Program-made: the position numbers and the translations under genes
In this document: in pieces, positions 5,942 through 30,808 of the stretch
How positions within the stretch are numbered: position 1 is the first letter of the stretch
Layout of the letters: each line of letters opens with the position of its first letter
Assembly: GCF_913063105.1 (NCBI RefSeq)
Contig: NZ_CAJXYQ010000001.1
Coordinates: 248,001 to 312,000 of the forward strand
Direction: 5' to 3'
From: an uncultured Draconibacterium sp.
Lineage (GTDB): Bacteria > Bacteroidota > Bacteroidia > Bacteroidales > Prolixibacteraceae
DNA: 64,000 nucleotides
The notes under the pieces: generated by a model
Database searches by the model: none
Told to the model about the DNA's origin: nothing
What the model saw: the letters and a program-made list of their open reading frames with translations, nothing else

Positions 5942-5950
5942 TGAATTTTT

Positions 5951-7527: not shown

Positions 7528-7740
7528 ATGGGTAACGAACAGCTTAACAACAACATATCAGCACTTGTTACCACTCGCCCATGTAAAGTGAACGATAATG
7601 TTGATTTCGTTTTGATCCATCGCGATGTTCAAAGGTGCGTTATTGAAACAACTGCCGGTTGTTATGCAGGGTTTTATATTTACGGTTCAAACGATCTTCA
7701 TACCTGGCAGCTAATGGGTGGTAATGATAAGAAAACATAG
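7528..7740 (+). pseudogene. Possible C-terminal fragment of a larger protein
   Basis: This frame of about 70 residues from ATG 7528 ends with ETTAGCYAGFYIYGSND then LHTWQL, which looks like the beta-strand end of a larger structural or carbohydrate-binding-like domain. The frame is open upstream to 7432, but that part is hydrophobic and low in complexity. With the 7061-7353 relic it may come from one former gene. I cannot name the family. Confidence 0.35.
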
Positions 7741-7795
7741 AATGTGGTTGATTTTGTGTTACAGCCTCCCCATTTAAAAAGGATGTTCCTGGTTT

Positions 7796-9486: not shown

Positions 9487-9536
9487 ATTGATTTATTTGA
9501 GAGTAAAAGTAAATGGTGAGAGATAAAGAATTTGAG

Positions 9537-9583
9537 AAAATCAGGACGAAACTATCCTGATTTTTATTATTCTGATTTTTATT
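9537..9583. repeat. Stem-loop and direct repeat in the divergent control region
   Basis: AAAATCAGGA (9537-9546) and TCCTGATTTT (9555-9564) form a 10-bp perfect stem with an 8-base loop. CTGATTTTTATT occurs at 9557-9568 and again at 9572-9583 (15-base spacing). The site lies between the excisionase-like gene and the restriction cassette, so it could be an operator; a terminator role is less likely in this position. Confidence 0.5.
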
Positions 9584-9659
9584 TTATATGCACACATATT
9601 GGCTTTAATTCAAATATTAGTAAATTCGGGTTTTCACAATCAACCCATAGACGTTATTA

Positions 9660-15900: not shown

Positions 15901-16441
15901 GCACTGGTACAAACCATTATATGAAAGATTGAGTGTGCCATTTGACAATGCAAAGATAGTAGTTAATACAAAGAAAATGGATTTGTTCTCTTATTCAGGC
16001 AAGCCAGTTTATGCTTCCGGTGGAGGATTGGGTGGTCAAAACTACATCTATCTTAAACCTAAACAGAAATCGAACTATCTCCTCGAAGTGCTAAAGCTTA
16101 CCACAAGTAAAGAATTTACAAAATTAATTTCAATTATACTTAACAGCAAATTAACAAAGAAACATATCAAAGAAGGAAACTTCAACCAGCTCAGTACATC
16201 AAAAATCAAACAACTAAAGATTATCAAGTTGCCGTTAGATTGTGCAGAAGTATTCAGCAATTATATAGCCATCGTCAAGTGTTTAAAGTCTCCTCCTGCG
16301 ATCCTGGACCTCATGGTCTACAAGCTCTACGAACTAAGCTACGAAGAAGCCTTAATTGTTGACCCGGAGTTGCCCGGCATTATTTCGCGTGAGGATTATG
16401 AGCAGGCTGGTATTGAGGAGTTGGCGGAGTGGGAAGTGTAA
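12929..16441 (+). CDS. Eco57I-like adenine-specific DNA methyltransferase (large, PglX/type IIG-like)
   Basis: This 1170-residue protein is predicted to methylate adenine N6. The AdoMet motif VLDPACGSGAFPMG lies at about 436-449 and the catalytic motif IV GNPPY at about 671-675; between them is the long insertion usual for the Eco57I family. YYTPRPIVEYMV (about 374-385) precedes motif I as in many type I/IIG methylases. Residues ~700-1150 should hold the target recognition domain. The N-terminal ~250 residues could contain a nuclease, but no clear PD-(D/E)XK triad is visible. No pglZ or BrxC gene is nearby, so it is not BREX. It is coupled to the helicase gene. A relic of a second copy's 3' end lies at 20387-20524. 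Confidence 0.88.
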   Translation: MIDFSLPYKKKDFLNFLESFLPEDYKEHNEELEIPFKSKYTNKVTFWGESNSLNLAVYKVKHSSENDARVSLTREMFRLMAAFGKRRALVVLIPKTGDSYRFSLVTIDLKIDEKNKIQRDYSNPKRYSFILGVRAVHTPQKFLVTQGRVTSFEDLQKRFSVEVVNKEFYNQIAVMFSRLVGGKRKQGSRTKNYDHELELPSTPYEHNEQKYKEFAVRLIGRTVFCWFLKKKKSADGIPLIPEDVLSTFAISFNPNYYHGRVEPLFFNVLNTPVNERSKEFKEKPYNQIPFLNGGLFEPQPDDFYPNNKPNYALKIPDQWWRDFIDILETYNFTIDENTSIDIDLSVDPEMLGRIFENLLAEINPETGESARKSTGSYYTPRPIVEYMVDESLKQYLVTQTSIDEEKLDLLLDYSREESGLDANEEDTVNEALSKIKVLDPACGSGAFPMGILQKMLLILQKVDHNAENSIEQILADIKDPVYRKLIESKLKAAQVYDDDDLDDYARKLNIIRRSIYGVDIQPVAVDIAKLRFFLSIIVDEVIQDDLPNRGIEPLPNLEFKFVCANTLIPLPPDRQLFENVDSINKLEELRDQYFISYGEEKQNIKNEFRKVQAQMFNTSIDLLSREPGSHNTVPQTQTQMLATWNPFSNDSTKWFDPKWMFGERDGFDIAIGNPPYIGEKKFTNLFAPIKNHIFWKPFYRRRSNLYYFFIIYGIFLNAKNGVLSYIVPNEFMTADWANRVRKYILKNTNLSQLLLFENSDVFEDAGTSSAVLLLIKNQKRKNGKLFLIDEFSKELNLKTCLDKEAIINQDNFDESGTNIWHFFESENKRIEEIELGEICEVSQGIVTGCDRVTSRHAEQGLIEKSLIGRGIFVLREDIDYKYHNDRIYLKIEEAWVKLKRKDENYLKPFINSTHLKRYKVKKTDELIIYVGNQEPSDNIYDYLFQFKTVLINRSTTVDYNITTNTFDKYTERDIKKVYSSAGAVQKVMKRKHWYKPLYERLSVPFDNAKIVVNTKKMDLFSYSGKPVYASGGGLGGQNYIYLKPKQKSNYLLEVLKLTTSKEFTKLISIILNSKLTKKHIKEGNFNQLSTSKIKQLKIIKLPLDCAEVFSNYIAIVKCLKSPPAILDLMVYKLYELSYEEALIVDPELPGIISREDYEQAGIEELAEWEV

Positions 16442-16473
16442 AAAAGAACAGAACTTAACTTTAAACACATGGT

Positions 16474-17364
16474 ATGAGGCAACTTGACAAAACAGAAAAA
16501 CGCCTTTTGTGCACTTTAAAGGAATTGTGCGGAAATAAAACCGTGTCGATAAAAATTGAAACCATTATAGAATCGTTCGAGACCTTTAAAAAAGTAGAGT
16601 TCGAGTTAATTGCAGACCCTCCAACAAAAATCGTGCGTTATAGGGCAAAAAATGAAGCTGATTATAATCTTTACAAAAACACCCTGGCAACTTTTATTAA
16701 CCTCATCGACCAGCTTCGTAATGAGCACTGGATATTCATGGTTCCTCGAAATTTGCATGGATTTGAAAGTGGCACTTATAATCCAATTAATGGAGAAAAA
16801 AAGGATTATACGGATATTAACAGGAATCTTCATGATAGATTTGTTGACCTTTTTGACTATGAAATTTATTTAACAAAAGGACTCCTCGACTATATTAAAA
16901 ACAATTTTAAAACAGAAGAAAAAAGGCGATTCAATAAATCACACAGAGCTACCTGGATTGCGATTTTAATTGCGTTTATCACTTTAGTTATTACAAATCT
17001 GCCTTGCTCTAAAAAAAATGAATCGTTCGTCAAATTAGAATCAAACGATATTAAAGCTATTACAAGTCATATTGACAGCATCAACGAAAAACTTGATTCG
17101 ATTACACTTTATCAAACTTTAGATCTGTCAACTTCATTACCTAATTACAAAGTTACTGCTGTAGACAATTTAAATATCCGAAACAACCACATTTTATCCA
17201 ATAATACTATTTCCGGTCAATACTTAAACAAGGGCGATTTAGTTGTTATACAGGAAGAAAAAACAGTTGGCTCTGAAAAGTGGTTGAAGATTTTATACGC
17301 AAATGATTTAAATGGAGACTTGGCAGAGGGTTGGGTTTGTGACCGGTCTGGATTTTTTTACTAA
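16474..17364 (+). CDS. Single-pass membrane protein with C-terminal SH3-like domain
   Basis: This 296-residue protein is not of a named family. An N-terminal soluble part (1-155, basic towards its end) is followed by one hydrophobic helix at about 160-178 (WIAILIAFITLVITN). A short helix linker (about 185-215) and a bacterial SH3-like domain (about 225-296) follow, with NLNIRN, YLNKGDLVVI and GWVC. By charge the N-terminus is cytosolic and the SH3 part periplasmic. Bacterial SH3 domains often bind cell wall. It lies 32 bases after the methyltransferase and 20 before a nuclease-like gene, so it is part of the cassette. A wall-anchored protein inside a restriction operon is unusual. Confidence 0.7.
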   Translation: MRQLDKTEKRLLCTLKELCGNKTVSIKIETIIESFETFKKVEFELIADPPTKIVRYRAKNEADYNLYKNTLATFINLIDQLRNEHWIFMVPRNLHGFESGTYNPINGEKKDYTDINRNLHDRFVDLFDYEIYLTKGLLDYIKNNFKTEEKRRFNKSHRATWIAILIAFITLVITNLPCSKKNESFVKLESNDIKAITSHIDSINEKLDSITLYQTLDLSTSLPNYKVTAVDNLNIRNNHILSNNTISGQYLNKGDLVVIQEEKTVGSEKWLKILYANDLNGDLAEGWVCDRSGFFY

Positions 17365-17384
17365 CAATAATAAACTTGTGTATA

Positions 17385-18416
17385 ATGCCAAATATTTTCA
17401 AAATAATAGAAAAGGTTACAAGTAGAATAGAGCCATTCCATTCTGAGTTTTTGGCAGATGCATTACGTAAAAATAGCTCATTATTAGTTGGCCTGCTGCA
17501 TTTAATACAAAACCAAACCAGAATTAACCTTTCCGACCTCATCAATGCCAACCAATTTGAAGTCATCAGCGAAGATTCCTTTGACGATAATAAAAGAATA
17601 GATATTGTTATTCTCTCCCCTGCTTCCAAAGATATTGTAGGTATTGAGGTTAAAACAACTGATTCGAGTGTACGAGACAATCAGCTAAACGAGTATTACG
17701 CCAAACTCACGAACAAATACCCTGGCAAGAGAATTATTTTTGTCTTTCTCACCCCATATAACATTGATAACTTGCCAGAAGAAATTAATCCCTCTAACAT
17801 TAAAGCCATTAAGGAATTTTCTTACTATGCCAGTAACCACACTAACTCAGTGCATCTAAATTGGGATCAGGTGATTAGCTTGTATCAAGATCTCGATAAT
17901 TATGCAGGAAGCATTTTTGAATCACACCATGATTTCATTCAAAAAAGAGTAACAAATACCGCCAAGTTAATTAGCAGATTATCAAACTTGGAAAGAAACA
18001 GAGGTCTTGCTGATTTCTTTGGAGAAGAATGTGTTGAAACTTTTTTAGAAAAAATTATGGATAGTAATATAACATACCAGGAGAATGAGAGCAATATAAC
18101 TTTCCCCATTCCCAATAATACAACAGCAATAGGAAATCTACTTTCATTGTTTAGCATCCTTATTGAATCTGATAATCTTAAAAAAACCGTTAAAAGACAG
18201 GATAGAGTCGAGAAGGCATTAATCCTCAGCTACGAAAACAGCTCACATGGAGATTTCTTTATATCCTTCTTTGACTTGATCCATTCTTATAAATACCTTT
18301 GGATAGAAGGGAAAGGAAACCTGGGAATAAGAGCAGCACACGAATCACACCCAAGTTCGGGTGTGAGCTTATTTACGATAGACAGAAATTCAATAGCGAT
18401 CCGTAAAACAAGATAG
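17385..18416 (+). CDS. PD-(D/E)XK nuclease superfamily protein
   Basis: In this 343-residue protein the N-terminal part shows the nuclease core: RIDIVI (D73), then GIEVK (E88, K90), and QLNEYY (Q100), the D-x14-ExK spacing of the PDDEXK_4-like group. This predicts a metal-dependent DNA endonuclease. The C-terminal ~200 residues are of unknown fold. ATG 17385 is chosen; a TTG three codons upstream is less likely. Gaps of 20 and 17 bases to its neighbours indicate one operon with the methyltransferase and the GmrSD-like gene. It may be a second effector of the same system or an independent defence protein. Confidence 0.75.
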   Translation: MPNIFKIIEKVTSRIEPFHSEFLADALRKNSSLLVGLLHLIQNQTRINLSDLINANQFEVISEDSFDDNKRIDIVILSPASKDIVGIEVKTTDSSVRDNQLNEYYAKLTNKYPGKRIIFVFLTPYNIDNLPEEINPSNIKAIKEFSYYASNHTNSVHLNWDQVISLYQDLDNYAGSIFESHHDFIQKRVTNTAKLISRLSNLERNRGLADFFGEECVETFLEKIMDSNITYQENESNITFPIPNNTTAIGNLLSLFSILIESDNLKKTVKRQDRVEKALILSYENSSHGDFFISFFDLIHSYKYLWIEGKGNLGIRAAHESHPSSGVSLFTIDRNSIAIRKTR

Positions 18417-18433
18417 AACTAAAAACTAATAAG

Positions 18434-20386
18434 ATGGAAATATCAACACTTTTATCACACATTGACAACGGCCATATGGCTTTACCTGAGTTTCAACGAG
18501 GCTATGTTTGGAACAGAGATCAGGTACGTAGTTTTTTTGATTCATTATACAAGAGGCATCCTGTTGGAAGTTTACTTGTCTGGGCAACGCAATCAACCAA
18601 TGCAGTGCATCGTGGTGATGGACAGTTAGCACCCGGAATTGTAAAACTAATACTTGATGGCCAACAAAGAATGACAACGCTATACGGGGTAATACGAGGT
18701 AAAGCTCCGAAGTTTTTCGAAGGCAATGAGAAGGCATTTACAGGGCTTTACTTTAACCTGGCGACGGAACAGTTCATGTTTTACTCGCCAATGAAAATGG
18801 ACGAAGATCCGCTATGGATTAATGTTACCGAACTGATGAAAAAAGGACACGATGGGATTGATGAATTAACTGCCAGGCTATATAGTAAACCGGAATTAAC
18901 AGGACAATCGAGATATGTTGGTAAACTGGCTAAATTACTTGGGATTAAAGATGTCTCGTTCAACATTGAAGATGTTACAGGAGAAGATAAAACTATTGAT
19001 GTTGTAGTTGATATTTTCAACAAAGTTAACAGCGGCGGAACCAAACTATCAAAAGGAGACCTTGCCTTAGCTAAAATTTGTGCAGAATGGCCGGATGCCC
19101 GGGATTTAATGAGAGGGCAGATTGATGATTGGAAACATTCGGAATATCATTTCAACCTGGATTGGTTATTAAGGTCTGTAAATACCATCTTAACAGGTGA
19201 AGCAAAATTTCAATATCTACATAATCAGAAAGCTGTGGACATTGAGAATGCGTTTAAAAAGGCAACAAAACATATTGATAATGTACTTAATCTAATTTCA
19301 GGCAGATTAGGATTAGATCATGACCGAGTATTATTTGGCCGTTTCGCCATACCAGTCATGGTTCGATTGTTAGATAACTTAAATGGAGGATTAGACGAGA
19401 CAACAAGAGACAAACTCTTATTTTGGTACGCTCAGGCTGGTATGTGGGGACGATTTTCCGGTTCAACAGAATCTTATATCGATAAGGATTTATCAGTGAT
19501 AGAAGGTAAGGAGAATGGAATTGATAATCTTATAGAGCAACTAAGACTATGGCATGGAGGATTAAAAGTGGAACCAGGGCACTTTTCCGGCTGGAGTCTT
19601 GGTGCCAGGTTTTATCCGGTTTTGTATATGCTAACCCGTATGGGAGAGGCCAAAGATTGGGGTACTGGAATTCCATTAAAAGCCAGCTTGCTGGGTAAAA
19701 TGAATAAACTTGAGGTACACCACATATTTCCAAAGGCACAACTTTATAAGTACGGTTATTCAAGGGCAGAAGTTAATGCACTTGCAAACTTCTGTTTCCT
19801 TACTAAGGATACAAATCTAAAAATTAGTGACAGGTTGCCGGAAATATATTTTGAAGAAGTGGAAAGCAGTCATCCTGGCGCACTATCTTCTCAATGGATT
19901 CCAATGAATGAGGATTTATGGAAAATTGAAAACTACCGATTGTTCCTTCAGGAGAGACAAAAACTTTTAGCTGAAGAAACGAATAAGAAAATGGAAGAAT
20001 TGCTACATGGCGACACAAAATGGTTGTCTGGTTCGACTGTTCAACCACCGCAAAAAATATATGGAGGAATTTCTTCTGACGATGAAGAAAAAGAACTGGA
20101 AGAACTTGCATCGTGGGTAGAAGAACAAAACCTGACACCCGGTGAGATAGCATATGATTATTCCAATCCTGAAACAGGCCAGCAAGAAGCCATATTTGAC
20201 TTAGCATGGCCAAATGGCATTCAGGAAGAATTAAGTGAACCGGTGGCTGTTCTGCTTAACGAAGGAGCAGAAACTCTTGCCATAGCTAATAATGCTGGAT
20301 TTAGATGTTATACATCAGTAGATGATTTTAAACGATATATTGAAAAAGAAATATTGAGAAAAGACAAACAGCTTATGCTCTACTAA
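18434..20386 (+). CDS. GmrSD-like fused DUF262-DUF1524 protein (type IV restriction-like)
   Basis: This 650-residue protein has two domains. The N-terminal DUF262 (ParB/Srx-like, GmrS type) has PEFQRGYVW (about 18-26), LILDGQQRMTTLYG (71-84) and FNKVNSGGTKLSKGD (about 194-208). The later HNH-type nuclease (DUF1524, GmrD type) has EVHHIFPK (about 426-433) and the distal NFCFLT and NLKIS. In characterised relatives (GmrSD, BrxU) the first domain hydrolyses NTP and the second cuts DNA with modified bases. The ~110 C-terminal residues are an extra acidic domain. It starts 17 bases after the PD-(D/E)XK gene and is probably the last gene of this operon. Confidence 0.88.
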   Translation: MEISTLLSHIDNGHMALPEFQRGYVWNRDQVRSFFDSLYKRHPVGSLLVWATQSTNAVHRGDGQLAPGIVKLILDGQQRMTTLYGVIRGKAPKFFEGNEKAFTGLYFNLATEQFMFYSPMKMDEDPLWINVTELMKKGHDGIDELTARLYSKPELTGQSRYVGKLAKLLGIKDVSFNIEDVTGEDKTIDVVVDIFNKVNSGGTKLSKGDLALAKICAEWPDARDLMRGQIDDWKHSEYHFNLDWLLRSVNTILTGEAKFQYLHNQKAVDIENAFKKATKHIDNVLNLISGRLGLDHDRVLFGRFAIPVMVRLLDNLNGGLDETTRDKLLFWYAQAGMWGRFSGSTESYIDKDLSVIEGKENGIDNLIEQLRLWHGGLKVEPGHFSGWSLGARFYPVLYMLTRMGEAKDWGTGIPLKASLLGKMNKLEVHHIFPKAQLYKYGYSRAEVNALANFCFLTKDTNLKISDRLPEIYFEEVESSHPGALSSQWIPMNEDLWKIENYRLFLQERQKLLAEETNKKMEELLHGDTKWLSGSTVQPPQKIYGGISSDDEEKELEELASWVEEQNLTPGEIAYDYSNPETGQQEAIFDLAWPNGIQEELSEPVAVLLNEGAETLAIANNAGFRCYTSVDDFKRYIEKEILRKDKQLMLY

Positions 20387-20524
20387 CCCTGTCAAAACTC
20401 TAACCTAACTCAAATCAACAGGCTCAATGAGATTAGCAATAAAGAGGCCTTAATTGTCGCCCAAGAGTTCTCCGGTATTATTTTGCGTGAGGATTATAAG
20501 AAGCTGGCAGAGTTGAATGTTTGA
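20387..20524 (+). pseudogene. Relic of a methyltransferase 3' end
   Basis: A frame without its own start runs from 20387 and ends TGA at 20522-20524. It reads NRLNEISNKEALIV, then GIILREDYKKLAELNV. This parallels the end of the methyltransferase at 12929-16441, which reads YKLYELSYEEALIV, then GIISREDYEQAG and ELAEWEV. The DNA is also similar (for example TTGCGTGAGGATTAT against TCGCGTGAGGATTAT). So the last ~40 codons of a second, diverged methyltransferase survive here, between the GmrSD-like gene and the AlbA-type gene. Confidence 0.8.
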
Positions 20525-20570
20525 TATAGATTTTTATAACTTTGATAAAAAAGCTTAAACGATTGCATTA

Positions 20571-22214
20571 ATGGAAGAAAACATATTCTTCGACAGAAAA
20601 TCATTAAAACTGGTTACCGGAAAAACTGCCGACTGGAATGAAATAGCCAAGGATTGTGTAAGTTTTGCAAATTCAAGAGGCGGCAGCATACTCATTGGAA
20701 TTGAAGATGAAGAAAATGAACCTGCAGTTAATCAAAAAATAAATCCGGATTTACCTCAGAAAATTATAAAAAGAGTTTCAGAACTCACAATTAACGTCGG
20801 AACAACGGCTACAATTATTACCAGTAAAAATGGTGGTGAGTATGTCGATTTAAAGGTATTACCAAGCATTTCAACAATTGCCAGCACTACCGATGGAAAG
20901 TACTACTATCGAGTCTCAGATAATTGCCTCCCACTACCTCCTGACGAGCTTATGCGGTTGCTTACCGATAAACCATCATACATTTGGGAGACTAAAGTCG
21001 TTCGCAATGTACCGAAAACCGAAATTGATGAAGCCAAACTTCAAAGTTTCATTCTAAATATTCAAGCATCTGACCGTATTAGCAAATTTGTAAGAGATAA
21101 AGGCAAAGACGAACTACTGGAATACTACTTAATGGCAGAAGGCCAACATTTAACGAACCTGGGCGTGCTTTGGCTTGGCAAAAGAAACGATCGTGCTAAA
21201 CTTCTCTATGCACCGGTTGTTCAATTCCTTAAGTATGACGAGCATGGACAGCGTGTTAATAAAATGGTTTGGGACGACTTTTGGTTGAACCCTAAGGAGT
21301 TAATAGAAGCTGTTTGGACACAGATTCCCGACTGGAAAGAAGGAATAGAAGTATCAGATGGCATGTTCCGAAAATTTATCCCTAATTACGAAGAAGAAGT
21401 TGTACGAGAACTCTTGGTAAATGCCCTTGTCCACAGACCATATACAACGCGTGGCGATATTTTCATTAACCTATATCCAGACCGATTAGAAATTCGTAAC
21501 CCGGGTCTTTTCCCGCTCGGAGTTACCACAGAAAACATTCTTCATAAAACCATACGAAGAAATGAACACCTTGCAAAAGTCTTTTACGATTTAAAACTGA
21601 TGGAACGCGAAGGATCTGGTTATGACAAGATGTATGAGATTCTGTTAGGTAATGGCAAAGAAATTCCTATTCCAAATGAAGGAGATGACAGTGTTTGGGT
21701 TACTGTAAAAAAACGTATTACAAAAAATGAGATTGTGTCCTTCATTAATCGAGTAAATAATGAATATCAGTTACGACAAAAAGAACTTATATGCTTAGGC
21801 TTGGTCGCGCAGCATACAACCCTATCCGCAATCGAATTTTCATCACTTCTAAATCTGCCAGGACAAAATGCCATAAAAGACTGGTTAGGAAGATTAATTG
21901 ACCTCGGAGTTATCAGAACAAAAGGCAAAACCAAAGGAACCGAGTACTTCGTGAACCCGGAATTATTAAGAAAAACCAAATTTAAAGGCAAAACTACTCT
22001 TAAAAAGATTGAAGATCACAGGCTCCGAGAATTGATATATCAAGACCTAATTACTTATCCCAAAAGCGCAATAGGTGATATTCATAATAGAATTGGAAAG
22101 GAAATCTCGAAGCGTCGAATAAAATTTCAATTAGATCAAATGAAAGAAAAAGATGAAATCGTTTGGGATGGAGAAAAGAGATGGCGCCGATATTCTATCA
22201 ACAAAAAGGCATGA
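20571..22214 (+). CDS. AlbA_2 (Schlafen-like) and HATPase domain protein
   Basis: This 547-residue protein is often annotated as an ATP-binding protein or transcriptional regulator. The N-terminal AlbA_2 domain (about 5-130) has DCVSFANSRGGSILIGIED and YYYRVSDNCLPL. The middle HATPase_c_4-like part (about 275-360) has ELLVNALVHRPY, RLEIRNPGLFP and EREGSGYDKMYE. Two winged-helix segments follow, and the C-terminus is basic. Members are frequent in defence islands and next to restriction genes; whether they regulate or cut nucleic acid is not settled. It is separated from the cassette by 184 bases holding the methyltransferase relic, so it may be a separate transcription unit. Confidence 0.8.
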   Translation: MEENIFFDRKSLKLVTGKTADWNEIAKDCVSFANSRGGSILIGIEDEENEPAVNQKINPDLPQKIIKRVSELTINVGTTATIITSKNGGEYVDLKVLPSISTIASTTDGKYYYRVSDNCLPLPPDELMRLLTDKPSYIWETKVVRNVPKTEIDEAKLQSFILNIQASDRISKFVRDKGKDELLEYYLMAEGQHLTNLGVLWLGKRNDRAKLLYAPVVQFLKYDEHGQRVNKMVWDDFWLNPKELIEAVWTQIPDWKEGIEVSDGMFRKFIPNYEEEVVRELLVNALVHRPYTTRGDIFINLYPDRLEIRNPGLFPLGVTTENILHKTIRRNEHLAKVFYDLKLMEREGSGYDKMYEILLGNGKEIPIPNEGDDSVWVTVKKRITKNEIVSFINRVNNEYQLRQKELICLGLVAQHTTLSAIEFSSLLNLPGQNAIKDWLGRLIDLGVIRTKGKTKGTEYFVNPELLRKTKFKGKTTLKKIEDHRLRELIYQDLITYPKSAIGDIHNRIGKEISKRRIKFQLDQMKEKDEIVWDGEKRWRRYSINKKA

Positions 22215-22356
22215 AATAATTAACAATTGTTGATAGATTGTTGATAGAATCTGTTAATAGAAATTAATACATGATGCTATGATTGATTCCCATTAAGAAC
22301 AGAAATGCACATCTATATCACTGATTTACTGATTCATTTTACACTAAGCCAGTCTG
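22215..22356. other. Convergent gap with short repeats
   Basis: This gap between the AlbA-type gene and the integrase contains the palindrome AACAATTGTT and two copies of ATTGTTGATAG 12 bases apart (about 22222-22246). No T-rich terminator hairpin is visible. Confidence 0.4.
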
Positions 22357-23748
22357 CTAATTTGCCTTTTTAAGAACCCTCATTTTCATATCAACAACAC
22401 TGAATGTATTCTCTAAATTCTTTCGCAACGCATCCGGATCTTCGTTAATATACTTACGAAGTGTTTTAAAGTCTGTGTGCTGAGTTATATCCATGACTTG
22501 AGGAATTGGCATCTTCGCCACATTTAGAAGCAAGGAAACACATGTTCTACGCCCCGTGTGCATTGTTATGTGCTTATGAAGGGGTTCTGTCCTAACCAAT
22601 TTATCGCGACCTCTCATACGTTCAGTTGAGACCATCCTATCAAGTTCAGCCTCCTCAGCTGCTTCCTTCACGTAATCGTTAAACTTTTGGTTACTGATCT
22701 CAGGCAGTTTAAAGTTGTACTTTTTCAAGACTTGGAGTGCTGGTGCAATGTAACCGATAAAAGGAACAATAGTCTTCTTACCTGTTTTCTCAGCCTTAAA
22801 AATCCAGGAGTCACCTACAATATCTGCCTTATTAAAGTTTGCAATATCTCCCCATCGCTGTCCGGTAAACGCGGCAAAACAGAATAAGTCACGCACTTGT
22901 TCCAAGCGTTTATCCGCAGAAAAATCATGTTCATAGAATTTCTTTAACTCATCCATTGAGAGTGTAACAATATCTTGTTTAGGTTTCCTTCGCGAAGAAA
23001 AGTCGGTACGCTGAAACTCACGATTCTTGTGATGTCCGCGTTCAAGGGACCACTTAAGAAAGTGTTTTAAGTTTTCAAGATATTTTGACACGGTGTCATT
23101 CAACAATCCTTTTTCGTTATTACCTTCCTTGTCCTTTCTCTTTGGATTTTCTACTTCTGTCAAAAGGTAGTTCCTGTAATCATCATAGAAATTCATATCA
23201 ATCTGTGAGAAGGTGAGGTTCTGGTACTTTCTTTTGTCCGCGCAAAATCCTTCCAATGACTTTTTCAGCGTCTTATACTTCTGAATAGTCCTTGGTGACA
23301 CATTCGTTTTATTCTTATCTATATAGTCCTGTAATACATCAAAGAAGCCCGTTCCATCTTCAAAGTCAGGATTCTGCTCTGACTTTACGAACTCTACGAT
23401 TTTCTCCTTTACCTGATTGAATGTAATGTCTGCATTCTCGTTTACCAAACCGTTATAGAAGTCCGTTACATTTTTGTATAGTGTAGTGATTCTTTTATTG
23501 AATTCAGAACTCCCCGTTAGATTCGTCTTCATTCGTTGTTTGCTGAAGTCCCAATCTTTCGCGCGAATATTGAGGTCTGTCTTACATTTAAACCTGTTTT
23601 TCCTATCAAAACCAAATACCATTAAGATCGGTGTTTCAATAGGATTGAAGTACTTATCAAGCCTACCGTTTTTTTGCTTCTGCTCTTTTACTTTATCTGA
23701 GCTACCTTTTTTAAATTTCTCTCGTAGTACAAAATTGATGTTTGCCAT
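22357..23748 (-). CDS. Tyrosine-type site-specific integrase of the element
   Basis: This 463-residue recombinase has an N-terminal arm-binding part, a core-binding SAM-like domain (about 130-245) and a catalytic domain (about 260-440). Catalytic residues are R298 (TGQRWGD), H397 and R400 (HTGRR), H424 (TQHTD) and the nucleophile Y433 (LRKYI). It belongs to the Bacteroidota phage_int_SAM_5-like integrases that use tRNA genes. The ATG at 23748 (start MANINFVLREKF) is preferred to an upstream GTG-type frame, because that stretch would translate the 11-bp tandem repeats at 23778-23810. It lies 188 bases from attR and transcribes into the element. Confidence 0.95.
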   Translation of the reverse strand: MANINFVLREKFKKGSSDKVKEQKQKNGRLDKYFNPIETPILMVFGFDRKNRFKCKTDLNIRAKDWDFSKQRMKTNLTGSSEFNKRITTLYKNVTDFYNGLVNENADITFNQVKEKIVEFVKSEQNPDFEDGTGFFDVLQDYIDKNKTNVSPRTIQKYKTLKKSLEGFCADKRKYQNLTFSQIDMNFYDDYRNYLLTEVENPKRKDKEGNNEKGLLNDTVSKYLENLKHFLKWSLERGHHKNREFQRTDFSSRRKPKQDIVTLSMDELKKFYEHDFSADKRLEQVRDLFCFAAFTGQRWGDIANFNKADIVGDSWIFKAEKTGKKTIVPFIGYIAPALQVLKKYNFKLPEISNQKFNDYVKEAAEEAELDRMVSTERMRGRDKLVRTEPLHKHITMHTGRRTCVSLLLNVAKMPIPQVMDITQHTDFKTLRKYINEDPDALRKNLENTFSVVDMKMRVLKKAN

Positions 23749-23777
23749 GCTATTCAAGGTTTTTAGAATAATTAATT

Positions 23778-23810
23778 TTGGGACACATTTGGGACACATT
23801 TGGGACACAA
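23778..23810. repeat. Three tandem 11-bp repeats at the right end of the element
   Basis: TTTGGGACACA occurs three times in perfect tandem, and two diverged copies lie at 5618-5639 in the same orientation. The block lies between the integrase start and its likely promoter, 127 bases from the attR core, as expected for integrase arm-type binding sites that also allow autoregulation. Confidence 0.65.
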
Positions 23811-23840
23811 TGTCTTAATCATTCAATATTTCATCGAATC

Positions 23841-23848
23841 CAAAAATA
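23841..23848 (-). promoter_or_regulatory. -7 promoter box for the integrase
   Basis: On the minus strand it reads TATTTTTG, a full match to TAnnTTTG. The 11-bp tandem repeats would lie in the leader of the transcript. Confidence 0.45.
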
Positions 23849-23936
23849 AAGAAATATTCCTAAAAGCACTATATATAGAGACTTTTATTTAACTGGCCGA
23901 TTAAAATAAAAATTAAGAAAAAATAATTTTGTAGCG

Positions 23937-23957
23937 CGGCTCCCGCTACTTTTAAAA
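23937..23957 (+). repeat. attR: right 21-bp direct repeat
   Basis: It is identical to 5550-5570. It is the leftover 3' tip of the tRNA-fMet gene, from which the original gene continued into the terminator that follows. Confidence 0.93.
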
Positions 23958-23986
23958 GCCAGAAGACATTTTCTTCTGGCTTTTTT
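23954..23986 (+). terminator. Displaced native terminator of tRNA-fMet
   Basis: AAAAGCCAGAAGA pairs with TCTTCTGGCTTTT and ends in more T. Before integration it would have followed the tRNA gene by 12 bases. Confidence 0.9.
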
Positions 23987-24076
23987 CGTATTATCGCACC
24001 CGTTAAACACCTATATCTTTACTACTTTTAATTCCGATTATTATATCCTTATCTATTCAAAAAAAATTTATATAAA

Positions 24077-24107
24077 AGGTAGGGGTAAATTGTTTGAGTT
24101 CGGTATG
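24077..24107 (+). promoter_or_regulatory. Candidate ECF-sigma promoter of the sigma/FecR/TonB operon
   Basis: AGGTAGGGG (24077-24085), a 15-base spacer and CGGTATG (24101-24107). The same pair with the same spacing (AGGTAGGGG, 15 bases, CGGTGTG) precedes the gene at 28243. This suggests -35 and -10 boxes read by the ECF sigma factor encoded just downstream (autoregulation). Confidence 0.65.
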
Positions 24108-24215
24108 TTTATGAAAGTTGGGAAAAACCATCTTTTTTATGCAGGCAAAAAGAAGCAAACAACTAAAGCTTGTAAGGTGCACTAAGTTGATATAAACCCG
24201 ATAAAACAAAGAAAA

Positions 24216-24713
24216 TTGACCAAGGAAGAGTTTAAAGGATTATTTGACGAACAGTTTGATCGGATAAGAAACTACATCTATTACCGGTCGGGCGACAAAG
24301 AACTGGCTACTGATATTGCGCAGGAGGCATTTATGAAATTATGGGAGAAAGATTTTGAATTCCATCCGCAAAAAAATGTAGGATTGCTGTACAAGCTGGC
24401 TACCGAACTTTTTATTTCGAGATACAGGCGCAATAAAATTGCCGACAATTATAAAAGCTATGTACAATTTAAGTTAAACGACGATGCTATTAAGCCCGAC
24501 GAAATGATGGAATACGAACAACTTAAAGAAGACTACGAAAAAGCACTTGCTGAAATGAGCGAAAAACAACGAACGGTATTTTTACTCAATAAACACGAGG
24601 GGTTTAAACAAACCGAAATTGCCGAACAACTAGGCATAAGTATTAAAGCCGTTGAAAAACGAATGAAAAATGCCTTAAGTCTGCTACGCGTAAAATTGAA
24701 TTACAATGGTTAA
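24216..24713 (+). CDS. ECF-type RNA polymerase sigma-70 factor
   Basis: This 165-residue sigma factor has region 2 at about 8-75 (DEQFDRIRNYIYY, DIAQEAFMKLWE) and region 4 at about 105-160 (MSEKQRTVFLLNKHEGFKQTEIAEQLGISIKAVEKRM), the form that pairs with FecR in Bacteroidota. No ATG is available before region 2, so TTG 24216 is taken as the start. The next genes are an anti-sigma factor (17 bases later) and a TonB-dependent receptor, a cell-surface signalling unit in which the receptor passes a signal through FecR to this sigma factor. Confidence 0.92.
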   Translation: MTKEEFKGLFDEQFDRIRNYIYYRSGDKELATDIAQEAFMKLWEKDFEFHPQKNVGLLYKLATELFISRYRRNKIADNYKSYVQFKLNDDAIKPDEMMEYEQLKEDYEKALAEMSEKQRTVFLLNKHEGFKQTEIAEQLGISIKAVEKRMKNALSLLRVKLNYNG

Positions 24714-24730
24714 CAGAAAAATTTGAAGTG

Positions 24731-25561
24731 ATGAAAAAAGATAATACGGAAAAAATAAACAGCTTAACCGAGATGGTGGAAGTAGACTATCCGCAATCAA
24801 AAGAAAGCATATGGAATTTAATGGAAGAGCAACTTACAAGGCCTGCCACAAAAGAAACAAAAGTGCGAAAATTGAATTTTCAGCACTTGGCTATTGCCGC
24901 GTCTGTTGCTATTTTACTGGGTATTGGCTCTTTTATGCGTTTTTACCAGATAGATTATACCGCCACCGCTGGCGAACACCTCACTGCCCAACTGCCCGAT
25001 GGTTCAGTGGTTGATTTAAACGGACAGTCAAGCTTGCAGGTAAATCCTTACTGGTGGAAAGTAAAACGAACCGTTAAACTTAAAGGTGAGGCCTATTTTG
25101 AAGTGGAAAAAGGAAAACGTTTTTCGGTGGTGAGCAACAATGGTAGAACAACGGTATTAGGCACAAGTTTTAATATATATGCCCGCAATAACCATTACGA
25201 GGTAAGCTGTTTAACTGGTAAAGTTGAGGTAGAAGTTGGAAGTGGAATAAAGCAAATTATTTATCCTAATCAGCAAGCCATTTTAAAAAATAACAGCATT
25301 GAGGTTGCCGAAACTAACGTTACACACGCTACTGATTGGAGAAACAATACATTTTTCTTTACATCAGAACCTTTACAAAGGGTATTTAACGATATTGCAA
25401 TTGCTTACAACATAAATATTGATGTACAAACAGAAGATATTTACACCGGCAGCTTTAAACAGTCAGACAACATTGAAGATGTTTTAAGTATAGTATGTGT
25501 GCCTTTAAATCTTACATTTGTAAAACAACAATCAGGCGATTATGTAATAAAAAAGAATTGA
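24731..25561 (+). CDS. FecR-type anti-sigma factor
   Basis: This is a 276-residue inner-membrane regulator. The N-terminal ~55 residues are cytosolic and would hold the sigma factor. One membrane helix follows (about 57-74, LAIAASVAILLGIGSFM), then the periplasmic FecR domain with LPDGSVVDLNGQSSL, GEAYFEV and VLGTSFNIYA (about 100-190). A C-terminal domain of DUF4974 type follows (PLQRVFNDIAIAYNINI to the end). ATG 24731 is preferred to the GTG one codon earlier. It ends 3 bases before the receptor frame. Confidence 0.92.
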   Translation: MKKDNTEKINSLTEMVEVDYPQSKESIWNLMEEQLTRPATKETKVRKLNFQHLAIAASVAILLGIGSFMRFYQIDYTATAGEHLTAQLPDGSVVDLNGQSSLQVNPYWWKVKRTVKLKGEAYFEVEKGKRFSVVSNNGRTTVLGTSFNIYARNNHYEVSCLTGKVEVEVGSGIKQIIYPNQQAILKNNSIEVAETNVTHATDWRNNTFFFTSEPLQRVFNDIAIAYNINIDVQTEDIYTGSFKQSDNIEDVLSIVCVPLNLTFVKQQSGDYVIKKN

Positions 25562-25564
25562 TTT

Positions 25565-28084
25565 TTGAGGTACGTATTATTATTATCAACACTGTTTCTA
25601 TGGACACTAACCCTAAATGCTCAAACTGTTCATTTGCGATACAACAATCAGTCGCTTGATAAAATATTAATTGATCTTCAGGCAAAATACTCCGTCAATC
25701 TTTCGTTTAGCAATAACCAGCTTTCAAAATATACTTGCACTGTTAATAATGATTTTTCCAACGTACACGATGCGTTGGAATTTCTGCTTATAAAAACCCC
25801 GTTGGTAGTTGAGCAGTTCGGAGATGTTTACCTTATAAAACAAGGCACAGAAAAGGAGAGCAAGACTTTTTTACTGGCCGCAAATATAATCGACAAAAAC
25901 ACGCGCGAACGCTTGCCCTATGCACACATTTTGGTGAATGAACGGCCACTTACCACCAACCAGAACGGCAGTTTTTCGGTTAAATGTAAAACCGATTCAG
26001 TTTTTAGGGTAAAAGTAAGCTACCTGGGTTTTTACCTCTGCGATACCGTGCTAACCGCCTCAACACAACACCAACTGGAATTAAAAGCTATTTCTTATGA
26101 AATTGAAGAAATTAACATAAATGCCCTTCATTCGATCCATAAAACCGGAGAGGTGAGCAAGCCGGGAGCAATTAGGCTGAACAGTTTTGTAAGTAATTAT
26201 TTACCGGGTAACGGCGATCAATCGGTATTTAATCTGCTGAGGTTACAGCCTGGAATACTGGCCGCCGGAGAGCAATCGTCTGATCTGCTGATTTGGGGCA
26301 GCTACGAGGGGCAAAGCAAACTGATACTGGATGGTATTACGCTTTTCAGTATGAAAAATTACAACGACAACATTAGCACAATAAATCCTTTAATTGTAAA
26401 AGATTTAAGTGTATTTAAAGGAGCTTACGGGATCGATTACGAAGGCAGGGTTGGAGGCATTGTTGATGTGTCGGCAAAGGACGGAAACAGGCAGAAATTC
26501 AGCTCGAGCCTTAATGTAAACAACCAAACCGTAAACGGACTGGCTTCCGTTCCCTTGTTCAGCAAGAAAGCCTCTTTGCTAATGGCCGTCAGACAAACCT
26601 ACTACGAGCTGTACGACCAAAGCAGGCTTACCTTAAATTCAGGCAAAGGTGAAAATGCTGCCACAGAACGAATTTTACACCCCGATTACAATTTCAGAGA
26701 TTACAACCTCAAACTATCAGGTGATTTTAACGACAAAACAAGCTACCGGATTAACTATTTACACGGTAAAGACAGATTTGAATACGCTCTGAACCTCGAG
26801 GGGAAACAGTCGAATTTTATCTACAACGACTCGGAAAAAAACAGGCAAAGCGGCTGGTCGGCACAAATCAATCATATTTGGAACAATGGAATAACTTCCC
26901 GGATTTCGGCTTCCGGTTCTTCATTAACACGGAACATTACAAACGAACAGCAGGCCGGAGGTGGTACCGGTGGCGGAAATGGCAGTGGAGGAGGAAATTC
27001 GGACTCCAGCATTCCATCAGGAAGTGCTATTTATCAAACCTTGTTAAACGACAAGATCGAGAACCACATTCATGAACAAAATATAAAAATTGAAACACAT
27101 ATTCCGCAGGCAGAAAACTACCAAATAAAAGGATTTGCTGCCTGGAATCATCATGAAACAAAATACAAAGAAGATTCGCTTAATGTTAACATTCATCGGT
27201 TGGACAATAAGCTAAACCGCCTAAACCTTGGCATAAACAACCACCTAACAATTGGCAAAAAACTGGATATAAATGCAGGCCTTATTTACGAACACATTTT
27301 ACAACACAACAAAAATTACTGGCAGCCAAGGCTTAGCCTCAGGTACCTGGTAGACAAAAATTTAGACATTAGTTTATCGTACGGCAAATACACACAGCAC
27401 GTTACTCAATTGCCACAAATAGATGATTTTAACCACATCAGGTACTTTTGGATGACCAGCGATTTTGACCAGATTGCCGTACAAGAAGGCACACACAAAG
27501 TATTGGGTTTTAACTATAAGACTGGAGGCTTAAAATTCGACTTGAATGTATTTCAGCGAAACACCAAGGGCTTAACACGTTTTATTAATTACGAGTACAA
27601 CTCGGCTGTTTATAGCGGAAAAAGTCGCTCGTCTGGTTTTGATTTTCTTTTTAGCCAAACCTACCGAAATTTGAACTTTTGGATAGCTTACACCTACAGT
27701 AAAACCGAAGAACATTTTGATTATTTTGAGACTGATAATTTTGCGCGTGCACTGCACGACCAGCGCCACGAACTAAAAGGTGCAGCCATTTACCGTTTTA
27801 ACAAATGGCATTTTTCGGCTAACTATGTTTTGGGCTCTGGTTTTCCCGATTTACTTAGCAATACCGTACTTGATAATTACCAACGCCTGGATATGGCCAT
27901 TAACAAAACCTTTAATCTCAGGAAACTAAACATCAATACCGGAATCTCCATTTTAAACCTGCTCAACCATAAGAATATTAAATACGACAATTTTTACCGC
28001 CTCGAAAGCGACGAAGGAGATGTAACCTTACATGCTGAAGCGCTTCCTTTTACCCCTACAATTTATTTAAACCTTACTTTTTAA
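25565..28084 (+). CDS. TonB-dependent outer-membrane receptor with STN signalling domain
   Basis: This 839-residue outer-membrane transducer starts with an unusual TTG (25565) that gives a clear signal peptide ending LTLNA-QT. Domains in order: an STN (secretin/TonB N-terminal) signalling domain about 25-95, a carboxypeptidase-regulatory-like beta domain about 100-185, a plug about 205-305 (QPGILAAGEQSSDLLIWG) and a beta barrel to the terminal Phe of NLTF. The STN domain should contact the FecR protein of the same operon. A Gly/Asn/Ser-rich loop (GGGTGGGNGSGGG, about 461-473) would be surface exposed. No SusD-like partner follows, so a small ligand (siderophore- or metal-type) or a signalling role is more likely than glycan import. 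Confidence 0.9.
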   Translation: MRYVLLLSTLFLWTLTLNAQTVHLRYNNQSLDKILIDLQAKYSVNLSFSNNQLSKYTCTVNNDFSNVHDALEFLLIKTPLVVEQFGDVYLIKQGTEKESKTFLLAANIIDKNTRERLPYAHILVNERPLTTNQNGSFSVKCKTDSVFRVKVSYLGFYLCDTVLTASTQHQLELKAISYEIEEININALHSIHKTGEVSKPGAIRLNSFVSNYLPGNGDQSVFNLLRLQPGILAAGEQSSDLLIWGSYEGQSKLILDGITLFSMKNYNDNISTINPLIVKDLSVFKGAYGIDYEGRVGGIVDVSAKDGNRQKFSSSLNVNNQTVNGLASVPLFSKKASLLMAVRQTYYELYDQSRLTLNSGKGENAATERILHPDYNFRDYNLKLSGDFNDKTSYRINYLHGKDRFEYALNLEGKQSNFIYNDSEKNRQSGWSAQINHIWNNGITSRISASGSSLTRNITNEQQAGGGTGGGNGSGGGNSDSSIPSGSAIYQTLLNDKIENHIHEQNIKIETHIPQAENYQIKGFAAWNHHETKYKEDSLNVNIHRLDNKLNRLNLGINNHLTIGKKLDINAGLIYEHILQHNKNYWQPRLSLRYLVDKNLDISLSYGKYTQHVTQLPQIDDFNHIRYFWMTSDFDQIAVQEGTHKVLGFNYKTGGLKFDLNVFQRNTKGLTRFINYEYNSAVYSGKSRSSGFDFLFSQTYRNLNFWIAYTYSKTEEHFDYFETDNFARALHDQRHELKGAAIYRFNKWHFSANYVLGSGFPDLLSNTVLDNYQRLDMAINKTFNLRKLNINTGISILNLLNHKNIKYDNFYRLESDEGDVTLHAEALPFTPTIYLNLTF

Positions 28085-28170
28085 TTACAATTTTCTACCA
28101 CCTAAAACACACTGTTTTACTGCTGTTTACATAAATAACCTCAATATTTTTTCATTTTTTTTCGTTCCGC

Positions 28171-28201
28171 AGGTAGGGGAAAAACCACTTCAAACGGTGT
28201 G
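28171..28201 (+). promoter_or_regulatory. Candidate ECF-sigma target promoter
   Basis: AGGTAGGGG (28171-28179), 15 bases, CGGTGTG (28195-28201). It repeats the bipartite motif upstream of the sigma gene at 24077-24107 with identical spacing and places a start about 35-40 bases before the gene at 28243. Confidence 0.65.
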
Positions 28202-28242
28202 AAGATGTAAACATTATTTAATAAATTAAAAAATTGTATATC

Positions 28243-28698
28243 ATGAAAACATTAGTAAAATTTTTAGCAGCATTTTTCTTTATTGCATTTGTAGCCAACA
28301 CATCATTCGCTCAAACCGAAGAAGGAGCAGTTTGCGATGGAACCGGAGTACCACAACAATTAAACGAAGGAACTGGAGAAGGCGTGCGTGGAGCCGGTAA
28401 TGGTAACGGCAATGGAGTAATGACACAGATAAAAGAAAATGGAGGTGAATTTCAGGCTACATTTAAAGCCACATTAACCGAAGAACAATTGGCAATTATT
28501 GAAAACCTGGAATTAACCCGCGAAGAAAAAAGAGAAGCTCTTCAGGCTACTTTCAGCGAAGCTCAACGTGAAATGTATGATGGCCACATGGCAGAGGTTG
28601 CAGAAAGACAAGCAGCACGGGGTAGCAATGCATTAAACAAAAGCCAAATGGAGCAAGCCGTAAAAAATGGCCTGCAAAAAGGAAAAGGAGGCAAATAA
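28243..28698 (+). CDS. Small exported protein, possible ECF-sigma target
   Basis: This 151-residue protein has a signal peptide (MKTLVKFLAAFFFIAFVANTSFA-QTE). After it come one Cys, a Gly/Asn-rich segment (GAGNGNGNGV) and a charged helical part (about 75-125) with LTEEQLAIIENLELTREEK, reminiscent of LTxxQ-type periplasmic stress proteins. The end is Lys/Gly-rich. ATG 28243 is preferred to a TTG three codons upstream. The ECF-like motif upstream suggests it is induced together with the sigma operon. A terminator follows. The function is not known. Confidence 0.7.
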   Translation: MKTLVKFLAAFFFIAFVANTSFAQTEEGAVCDGTGVPQQLNEGTGEGVRGAGNGNGNGVMTQIKENGGEFQATFKATLTEEQLAIIENLELTREEKREALQATFSEAQREMYDGHMAEVAERQAARGSNALNKSQMEQAVKNGLQKGKGGK

Positions 28699-28717
28699 TT
28701 AAGAGCTTAAGAACTAC

Positions 28718-28743
28718 AAAAAGGCACTTAAAAGTGCCTTTTT
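28718..28743 (+). terminator. Terminator after the small exported protein gene
   Basis: AAAAAGGCACTT (28718-28729) pairs perfectly with AAGTGCCTTTTT (28732-28743) around a 2-base gap, giving a near-perfect hairpin with a T end. Confidence 0.9.
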
Positions 28744-28871
28744 GTTCTGCTGTTTCCAACAAAAAATAATTTTTTATTCTTCTTGCCGAGGCTGTTTTCA
28801 GGCATTTTACGCTTTCAATCTTGTAAAAGCAAAGCATTTAAAATCATTCACGAAGTTTAAATTACCACACC

Positions 28872-29801
28872 ATGAAATCATTTACTTACATCATTATTCT
28901 TCTGGCTTGTTTACCGGTTTTATTGCATGCTCAAAACGACAAGGTAATTTCTACTGTTTTAGATACCCAAAAAGAAGCAAGACTTGATTCGTTAATTAAC
29001 GACCTGTTCGCTAACGATGCTGAATTACAGAGTTTGCTTGGTGGTGGCAGCCCGTTTAAAACCCATTATTTTTACTACCGAAATTCATACAGCACCAAAA
29101 CCATCTTCTCTGGTCGCGAAATTGGCAACAACCAGATGAACATTGGCAACCAGTTCTTTTATTTAAATGGCTCTGGCTTTTACGCCGGTATTTCCGGAGT
29201 TTGGTATAATCAACTCGACCCGGGCTACCGAACAACGGTGTTAATGGGAGGTTACAGCAACAATTTATTTAAAATAGATGCGCTTCGGGTGAGGCTATCG
29301 TACCTGCGCTATATTTCGCATATAAACGACCCTGCCTACGAACCGCTATACACCCAAAGCGTAAGCTCGGGATTTACTTTGAGTAATAAAAAAGTTGGCT
29401 TGAGCGTTGACGGAGCCCTAAATTTAGGAAATTACGATAGTGGAAGAAGCCTATCGGCCGATGTTTTTGGCAACATCGTACTGTATAAAAACGGCCCACG
29501 CAAAAAGATAAAACTTCGCCCTGAAGCTTCGGTAACCTATGGCATCGACTACCAGGAATTTATTCTGCCCGAGAGTTTTATCGATCCGCAAACCGGTATT
29601 GAATACAACTCGTACTACGACGACAAATTCGGACTGATGAACATTCAATTTACCCTGCCTCTTTATGTCAGCTACAAAAACTTCGACTTTCAGCTTTCGT
29701 ACCAGTACAATATGCCCCAAAATTTTGTCGATGATATTGAACACCCCAACGTTTCAGCATTTCAGTTCTCGATGGGCTACTTTTTTAGCTTAGGCAAATA
29801 A
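28872..29801 (+). CDS. Exported protein, probable outer-membrane beta-barrel, function unknown
   Basis: This 309-residue protein has a signal peptide (MKSFTYIIILLACLPVLLHA-QND). The rest alternates short strands rich in Tyr, Ser and Gly (GSGFYAGISGVWYNQLD, RVRLSYLRYIS, FQLSYQYNM) and ends in an aromatic-rich strand (FQFSMGYFFSLGK), as expected of a 10-14-stranded barrel. No named family is recognised. It follows the terminator at 28743 and has its own unit. Confidence 0.7.
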   Translation: MKSFTYIIILLACLPVLLHAQNDKVISTVLDTQKEARLDSLINDLFANDAELQSLLGGGSPFKTHYFYYRNSYSTKTIFSGREIGNNQMNIGNQFFYLNGSGFYAGISGVWYNQLDPGYRTTVLMGGYSNNLFKIDALRVRLSYLRYISHINDPAYEPLYTQSVSSGFTLSNKKVGLSVDGALNLGNYDSGRSLSADVFGNIVLYKNGPRKKIKLRPEASVTYGIDYQEFILPESFIDPQTGIEYNSYYDDKFGLMNIQFTLPLYVSYKNFDFQLSYQYNMPQNFVDDIEHPNVSAFQFSMGYFFSLGK

Positions 29802-30151
29802 GCATCTGATTCGTTATTTAATTATCGCTGAAGGATAGTTAACTTTTGACACAAGAGCTATTAGCTTTTCATCGCTGGATACTCAAAAACATCCGGAATT
29901 AAATTAATCGTTTTCAGGCACAAACCGCTCTACATTCAAAGTTAGCTGCTCAGCAAGCATTCACAGTAACTATGGGCACTAGAAAATTGTGCATTCAAAG
30001 CTTATCCTCTTATTTTAAACGCCGCATCTTTTCCCAATAAAAACCGTATAGTAAATCAGGCCGGTCTCAGAAGTTTTTTTCTTGTCGCTTTTCATCTCAT
30101 TAACTGATTGATAATCACATCTCCGGATTGTTTAACCAAAAATCAGTTATT
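29802..30151. other. 350-base intergenic stretch without a gene
   Basis: No open frame of note, tRNA or clear terminator was found between the two outer-membrane-type genes. A TTG-started extension from 30128 is possible but adds no signal-peptide sense. Confidence 0.5.
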
Positions 30152-30808
30152 ATGAAAAAAATTATCTTTTTTGTATTTGTTACAACTATGCTTTGTGCTT
30201 GCGATTGCCAATGGCGACTAGCCGTAAGTGAGGATATTGCCCTTATTGCCAATGCCGGGATGACACATGTTAACGGTGGAGAAAGTTACAACCCTGCATT
30301 TGGAGGAGCTATTGGAGCTGAAACAACCGTACTCAGACGCGATGAAAAATCATCCTTCAAAACCGGTGTAAATATTTCATTTCAGGGAGCAAGCTACGAG
30401 GAAACAATTTCTTACGATACCTATTCACTCAAAAGTGTACAATTGGAAGAAAATACCTTTTCAGGCAAAGTAAACCTATCGTACCTGAATATTCCCTTAT
30501 TGTACCATTACCAATCGAATAGTGGATTTTATGCAGAAGGCGGTCTGCAACCCTCGTTTTTATTAAGTGCTAAAGATAAACCTGATGAAGGTGCAAGCTA
30601 TGATTTTAAAGACTATATAAAAACTGTAGATATTGGAATTCCCGTGGGTTTGGGATATCAACTAAATGACAACTTAAGCCTGGGAGTTCGTGCTGTTTAT
30701 GGGTTATCTAATATAAACACGGAAGGAACCGAGATGTATTCAAGTGAGGATAACGACCATAACGTAACCGTATTTGGTGTATTCCGTTATACCTTTTCTA
30801 AAAAATAA
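30152..30808 (+). CDS. Outer-membrane beta-barrel protein (PorT/OMP_b-brl type)
   Basis: This 218-residue protein starts at ATG 30152 with MKKIIFFVFVTTMLCACDCQW, a signal peptide with a poor lipobox (Cys at -2), so lipidation is doubtful. The mature part has strands typical of eight-stranded OMP_b-brl barrels: FKTGVNISFQGASY, YLNIPLLYHYQSNSGFYAEGGLQPSFLLSA, GIPVGLGYQLNDNLSLGVRAVYGLSNI and the last strand VFGVFRYTFSKK. The ligand or role is unknown. It is convergent with efp and shares a terminator with it. Confidence 0.78.
   Translation: MKKIIFFVFVTTMLCACDCQWRLAVSEDIALIANAGMTHVNGGESYNPAFGGAIGAETTVLRRDEKSSFKTGVNISFQGASYEETISYDTYSLKSVQLEENTFSGKVNLSYLNIPLLYHYQSNSGFYAEGGLQPSFLLSAKDKPDEGASYDFKDYIKTVDIGIPVGLGYQLNDNLSLGVRAVYGLSNINTEGTEMYSSEDNDHNVTVFGVFRYTFSKK

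Follow-up and report, generated by a model that had tools for sequence, protein, structure and literature searches.

In the ferric citrate uptake system of Escherichia coli, fecIR is reported to be under the control of Fur and not autoregulated, and the extracytoplasmic function (ECF) sigma factor FecI drives the receptor gene (passages of PMC9249621). The promoter sequences of ECF sigma factors in the Bacteroidota are poorly known. Their prediction was called a challenging task requiring start-site data in 2013 (passages of PMC3878776); in 2020 a promoter was known for Bacteroides fragilis EcfO and for no ECF factor of Bacteroides thetaiotaomicron (passages of PMC7366714); and in 2025 two B. 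thetaiotaomicron ECF factors were tied to a -30/-10 motif, one motif analysis not being significant (passages of PMC12596196). Our literature search by title and passages, with the 2021 ECF classification outside its coverage, returned no GTAGGG motif of Bacteroidota ECF sigma factors. Here we describe a FecI-type locus in a 64,000-nucleotide stretch of an uncultured Draconibacterium sp. genome (contig NZ_CAJXYQ010000001.1, positions 248,001 to 312,000 of the forward strand; hereafter the window), in which one two-box site precedes both a sigma–FecR–receptor gene cluster and a separate gene for a small exported protein (Table 1). Both sites are very probably promoters read by the ECF sigma factor of the locus, which would then regulate itself and one local exported target. 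The whole is most likely a variant of the FecIRA type that differs by its predicted autoregulation and by having its target close by.

The two-box site and its conservation

Each site begins with AGGTAGGGG (24077-24085 and 28171-28179), followed by 15 bases and then CGGTATG in predicted promoter 1 and CGGTGTG in predicted promoter 2. A previous reading made from the sequence alone (the sequence-only reading) had reported AGGTAGGGG-N15-CGGTRTG at 24077-24107 and 28171-28201, which is exact to the base. GTAGGGG-N15-CGGTRTG has no other exact match in the window; with up to three mismatches there are 5 matches versus 3.05 expected, and GTAGGG-N{12,20}-CGGT occurs twice versus 0.26 expected, two or more matches being seen in 4 of 100 shuffles. 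On its two strands the window has 55 identical 9+4+2-base pairs with this geometry, and ten base-shuffled copies have 8-22 each. Because shuffled sequence yields such pairs too, the two sites are weak evidence by themselves, and the earlier assertion that the match is unlikely by chance therefore fails for the bare pair and holds once conservation in relatives is counted.

Relatives were taken from a scan of species genomes, as the best 80 of at least 532 loci, 53 of them with a sigma factor at least 45% identical to that of the window. Where about 1.3 kb or more of upstream DNA was available, TAGGG-N16-CGG was found upstream in 43 of 47 loci and GTAGGG-N16-CGG in 42 of 47. Every spacing from 8 to 24 other than 16 gave at most 2 loci, and 59 rearranged box pairs gave a mean of 1.2 loci, the outlier of 27 being the same site one base off and the next highest value 3. 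The fuller GTAGGG-N16-CGGTAT, with at most one mismatch and searched over 1.4 kb of upstream DNA, was present in 26 of 53 loci against a mean of 0.11 and a maximum of 2 for 288 permuted pairs (26 is the count of a window scan; start position plus an intergenic filter gave 27, the two differing in limits only). An initial sample, drawn from the same order, comprised 32 of 41 sigma matches, among them that of the window and the two paralogues in its genome. It gave the same motif at one mismatch or fewer within 300 bases before sigma in 10 of 32 cases, compared with 1 of 1600 shuffles; it overlaps the best-80 set, with at least two loci (L135 and L118) in common. The sequence-only reading had held that a motif lying mainly inside genes would speak against it. 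Over the 80 loci (970 kb), 36 of 38 matches to the fuller motif at one mismatch or fewer were intergenic and on the strand of the sigma gene, versus 3 matches for the reversed pattern.

Many related Bacteroidota carry this site at a locus of similar type. The two-box form of the earlier consensus stands, with a conserved core of GTAGGG-N16-CGG rather than the longer string shared by the window sites. Both window sites also have ATG-x-A 8-12 bases past CGG, and the aligned sites of the relatives have a conserved Y-R-N-A 9-12 bases past CGG, which is likely the transcription start point and would place the starts at approximately 24113 for promoter 1 and 28207 for promoter 2.

Two layouts account for most loci. 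In layout A (37/53) a single site lies 0.65-1.3 kb upstream, before the gene heading the sigma operon, and in layout B (6/53) one site lies at sigma and a second behind the receptor, before the exported-protein gene. The near site stands alone in 1 of 53 loci because the contig ends, the downstream site stands alone in 1 of 53 by the exact rule (the near site there begins TTAGGG), and near and far sites occur together in none of the 53. Outside this set, near and downstream sites are likewise paired in L140 and L141, whose sigma factors are identical. A site precedes a gene in 44 loci, and judged by eye the start of the product looks exported in 42 of the 53, the exceptions being L103 and L115. 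In these two the site is about 1270 bases before sigma, and the L115 product begins MSFILKDLSIITVHDRD, that of L103 being similar. Single-linkage clustering of 52 downstream products (loci down to 42% identity plus seven added by hand from window or earlier fetches) gave one lipoprotein family of 36 members, of which 35 lie before sigma; the remainder were 8 LTxxQ-like proteins including that of the window, two groups of 3, and 2 singletons, one of which is the L115 product, not evidently exported.

The pair recurs before sigma and before an LTxxQ-like homologue in four close relatives (L089, L090, L091 and L108; the second site of L089 reads CGGTTA), which supports the small LTxxQ-like target proposed from the sequence alone. 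The order sigma–FecR–receptor–small protein–barrel with both sites is found in Gaoshiqia sediminis (L089), Sunxiuqinia dokdonensis (L091) and two assembled genomes.

Specificity, regulon size and rival explanations

The window genome contains three paralogous systems that have the -35 box GTAGGG in common and differ in the -10 box, which is CGGTRTG in the window, CGGATTA on contig C16 (spacing 16) and CTGTATTA on contig C4 (spacing 15). The C4 system (G000:C4, 6355-10785) has three CTGTATTA-type sites, two before sigma and one before the gene after the receptor. A box shared by all ECF sigma factors of the genome was considered and rejected, as the core was absent from the approximately 1.4 kb upstream of all 16 other ECF-sigma matches. 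In longer regions the matches fall inside genes, with one exception, the promoter of the C16 paralogue itself, as viewed from L182. On a sigma tree of 83 rows, the CGG (51 rows) and YTG (9 rows) types of -10 box are separated by one change among the 60 typed rows, all nine YTG rows lying in one starred clade. Among the 27 loci below 45% identity, GTAGGG with (C/T)TGTAT at spacing 15 occurs upstream in 8 and anywhere in 16, and the CGG type upstream in 3.

The sequence-only reading had expected its consensus to identify the rest of the regulon, an expectation that was not borne out. Scans of the window genome assembly (4.93 Mb, 41 contigs, 91% complete) with refined and loose patterns revealed no wider regulon: the refined CGG pattern matched three times, at the two window sites and the C16 paralogous sigma operon, and the C4-type pattern also three times, all at C4, with no matches for either reversed control. 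The loose first pattern has a third exact match, which falls within a C16 gene. Across 37 sigma-bearing genomes the strict pattern had 12 matches, all within about 4 kb of the sigma gene, against one for the reversed control, and it had none in 37 of the 258 genomes without the sigma factor. The regulon in the window genome looks local.

That an AT-rich genome produced the two matches by coincidence deserves almost no credence: same-geometry pairs do arise in shuffled copies, as noted above, and chance is nevertheless excluded because the site is conserved in relatives against permuted, spacing and genome-wide controls. A two-box site of fixed spacing could also be the operator of an unrelated DNA-binding regulator travelling with the locus, an explanation we regard as highly improbable given that the boxes are not palindromic, that the -10 type follows the sigma tree, that nearly all matches are intergenic and on the sigma strand, and that the site is missing from the 37 scanned genomes lacking sigma. 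Cross-talk, in which one of the two paralogous sigma factors (C16 or C4) also reads the window sites, draws on the -35 box common to all three systems and on the spacing of 16 and CGG of the C16 promoter; it is unlikely in view of the differing -10 boxes, the shorter spacing at C4 and the restriction of C4-type sites to C4 (3/3).

It is similarly doubtful that promoter 2 is real with a mere passenger as its product and the receptor as the true output, as in ferric citrate uptake, where FecI drives the receptor gene fecA (passages of PMC9249621). The receptor does lie within the operon here, and against this a site followed by an exported-looking gene, scored by eye, is seen in 42 of 53 relatives' loci. 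A more far-reaching possibility, which we put forward only tentatively and hold to be improbable, is that these loci are Bacteroidota-wide single-output modules with a common -35 GTAGGG and a -10 box that separates paralogues, in which the sigma factor would control itself and one exported envelope protein that is itself sensed, giving homeostasis; the receptor might do the sensing or, in the L038 lineage, the LTxxQ segment that its FecR-like anti-sigma factor carries as a fusion.

Several observations weigh against the window sites being promoters of this sigma factor with a local regulon. Eight of 53 loci lack GTAGGG-N16-CGG at the expected places; four of these (L107, L126, L137 and L139) do so despite enough DNA, L126 having one stray match at -3454 and L139 a spacer of 17 bases, and the other four (L114, L118, L128 and L142) have less than 0.8 kb upstream available. 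Behind the site, L103 and L115 have either no gene that could be found or one whose product cannot be recognised as exported. The strict CGGTAT pattern is present in only 11 of the 37 sigma-bearing genomes. With one mismatch the loose first pattern has 11 genome matches versus 40 for its reversed control, so weak sites are indistinguishable from background, and sites may be missed because the assembly is 91% complete. The sigma tree was built quickly, 12 of its 79 inner branches being starred, and 23 of its 83 rows have neither -10 type; counting untyped rows as a third state gives 14 changes (shuffled mean 28.3), and counting YTG alone gives 5. The earlier identification of the boxes as those of this ECF factor, with autoregulation, is nonetheless supported as a prediction by the 43 of 47 relatives with the site, the 36 of 38 intergenic matches and the single -10 change on the tree.

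Genes of the locus

Table 1. Features of the sigma locus and of the neighbouring element (window coordinates)
Feature	Position	Strand	Details
tRNA-Met	5489-5562		direct repeat of its 3' end at 5550 and 23937
Tyrosine integrase	22357-23808	-	
Intrinsic-terminator-like stem	23954-23984	+	upstream of promoter 1
Predicted ECF promoter 1	24077-24107	+	-35 GTAGGG 24079-24084, 16-base spacer, -10 CGGTATG 24101-24107
ECF sigma factor	24216-24713	+	165 aa, TTG start; Sigma70_r2, Sigma70_r4_2
FecR-like anti-sigma factor	24728-25561	+	277 aa from GTG (ATG at 24731); PF04773 FecR, PF16344 FecR_C
TonB-dependent receptor	25565-28084	+	839 aa; N-terminal signalling-type domain, carboxypeptidase-regulatory-like domain, plug
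Predicted ECF promoter 2	28171-28201	+	-35 GTAGGG 28173-28178, 16-base spacer, -10 CGGTGTG 28195-28201
Small exported LTxxQ-like protein	28243-28698	+	151 aa, ATG start; signal peptide judged by eye
Intrinsic-terminator-like stem	28716-28745	+	behind the small gene
Predicted outer-membrane beta-barrel protein	28872-29801	+	309 aa; conserved neighbour of the small gene

The adjacency of sigma and FecR genes typical of FecIRA-type signalling is present, with PF08281, PF04542 and PF04773 over their cut-offs, as is the receptor, whose plug scores 29.5 bits against a cut-off of 23.9. The N-terminal domain of the receptor matches the FecR_C profile barely over its cut-off (24.5 versus 24.4), the Pfam listing of the receptor has no STN profile, and its carboxypeptidase-regulatory-like domain is below cut-off. 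The top NCBIfam match of the sigma factor, TIGR02985 (Sig70_bacteroi1), falls short of the family cut-off (116.1 versus 126.4 bits). No ATG, GTG or second TTG lies in frame between the TTG of the window sigma gene and the preceding stop; the TTG start is kept in 47 of 51 relatives, 44 of them without an in-frame ATG or GTG upstream, and this conserved weak start codon may hold sigma levels low. A plasmid search with the sigma factor gave relatives all below 60% identity and was not used, and Rfam at the gathering threshold had no match in 23700-30200.

Recognition of the sites by this sigma factor, the positions where transcription would begin, a FecIRA-type relay and what the exported protein would do all belong to the mechanism that we infer. 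In it, the TonB-dependent receptor and the FecR-like protein would release the sigma factor. Transcription from promoter 1 would then yield more sigma, FecR and receptor in a positive loop. Promoter 2 would supply the small LTxxQ-like exported protein, and read-through past the terminator might extend to the beta-barrel gene.

The designation LTxxQ-like rests on resemblance and holds to that extent. The small protein has no Pfam or NCBIfam match, including to PF07813 (LTXXQ, CpxP/Spy type), a profile that among nine relatives is passed by L108 only (25.2 versus 24.3), is weak in L148 and L154 and gives nothing in six. A CpxP- or Spy-like periplasmic role would presumably fit the helical LTxxQ-like core of the small protein, with the reservation that the window protein fails PF07813. 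Its structure model is weak (mean pLDDT 63; best structural match E 4.1), and six profile matches to solved chains (E 0.025 to 0.84) were put down to chance. The beta-barrel protein has no Pfam match, and its model has a mean pLDDT of 72. FapF-like secretion was set aside for this protein, most of the 50 matches listed by Foldseek being to porins, autotransporters or further kinds of barrel, at query-normalised TM-scores of 0.20-0.47.

Relatives differ in what accompanies the sigma factor. At L038:6510-7814 a FecR-domain anti-sigma factor has a C-terminal LTxxQ segment resembling the exported target, with no receptor gene after it, and in L039 an open reading frame with an LTxxQ segment directly follows sigma, with no FecR or anti-sigma domain detected in it. 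The Flavobacteriaceae loci L148:209-2528 and L154:6998-9260 encode sigma, a short protein with one hydrophobic stretch (a presumed anti-sigma factor), an LTxxQ-like protein and a barrel, with no FecR or receptor; in L154 the promoter core is 1063 bases upstream. Because the loci differ in this way, the small protein and the barrel look like old partners of the sigma factor, with a sensing part that varies.

An apparent integrative element of approximately 18.4 kb occupies 5489-23957 of the window. A repeat of the GGGACACATTT type occurs close to each end of the element, at 5613 and, as a tandem pair where the integrase gene starts, at 23772 and 23783. The sigma locus was considered as cargo of this element and rejected because the element ends before promoter 1, being closed by the repeat of the tRNA-Met 3' end at about 23937-23957.

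Comparison with known systems

A two-box site tied to one sigma clade, together with three paralogous systems in a genome, would make specificity and insulation directly testable, and a simple target-gene pattern would let exported targets be predicted from sequence. The predicted promoter of the sigma operon has the form expected for an ECF factor, with roughly 16 bases separating the -35 box from the -10 box, upstream of the operon of the sigma gene itself.

The window locus resembles FecI-FecR-FecA of E. coli in the adjacency of an ECF sigma factor, a FecR-domain anti-sigma factor and a TonB-dependent receptor with an N-terminal signalling-type domain. It differs in wiring, since fecIR and hasI are reported not to be autoregulated (passages of PMC9249621), whereas the predicted sites here precede the sigma gene itself and a separate exported protein. 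HasI-HasS-HasR-HasA of Serratia likewise combines a FecI-like sigma factor, an anti-sigma factor, a receptor and a small exported protein in one locus (passages of PMC9249621); apart from the regulation of hasI, the exported protein of the window differs in being LTxxQ-like. Das/Dma of B. thetaiotaomicron is also a Bacteroidota ECF system with its strongest effect on its own operon and neighbours. In contrast, Dma unites an anti-sigma domain, a tether and a C-terminal beta-barrel in one protein, while FecR and receptor are separate here, and Das2/Dma2 also alters polysaccharide loci; these passages give no promoter motif (passages of PMC13088901). Finally, ECF-type promoters have been inferred in Flavobacterium psychrophilum for SM6, one of them at an ECF/anti-sigma pair, with a -10 CGT and several unlinked targets (passages of PMC9723704), as opposed to the -10 CGG, -35 GTAGGG and local targets predicted for the window sigma factor.

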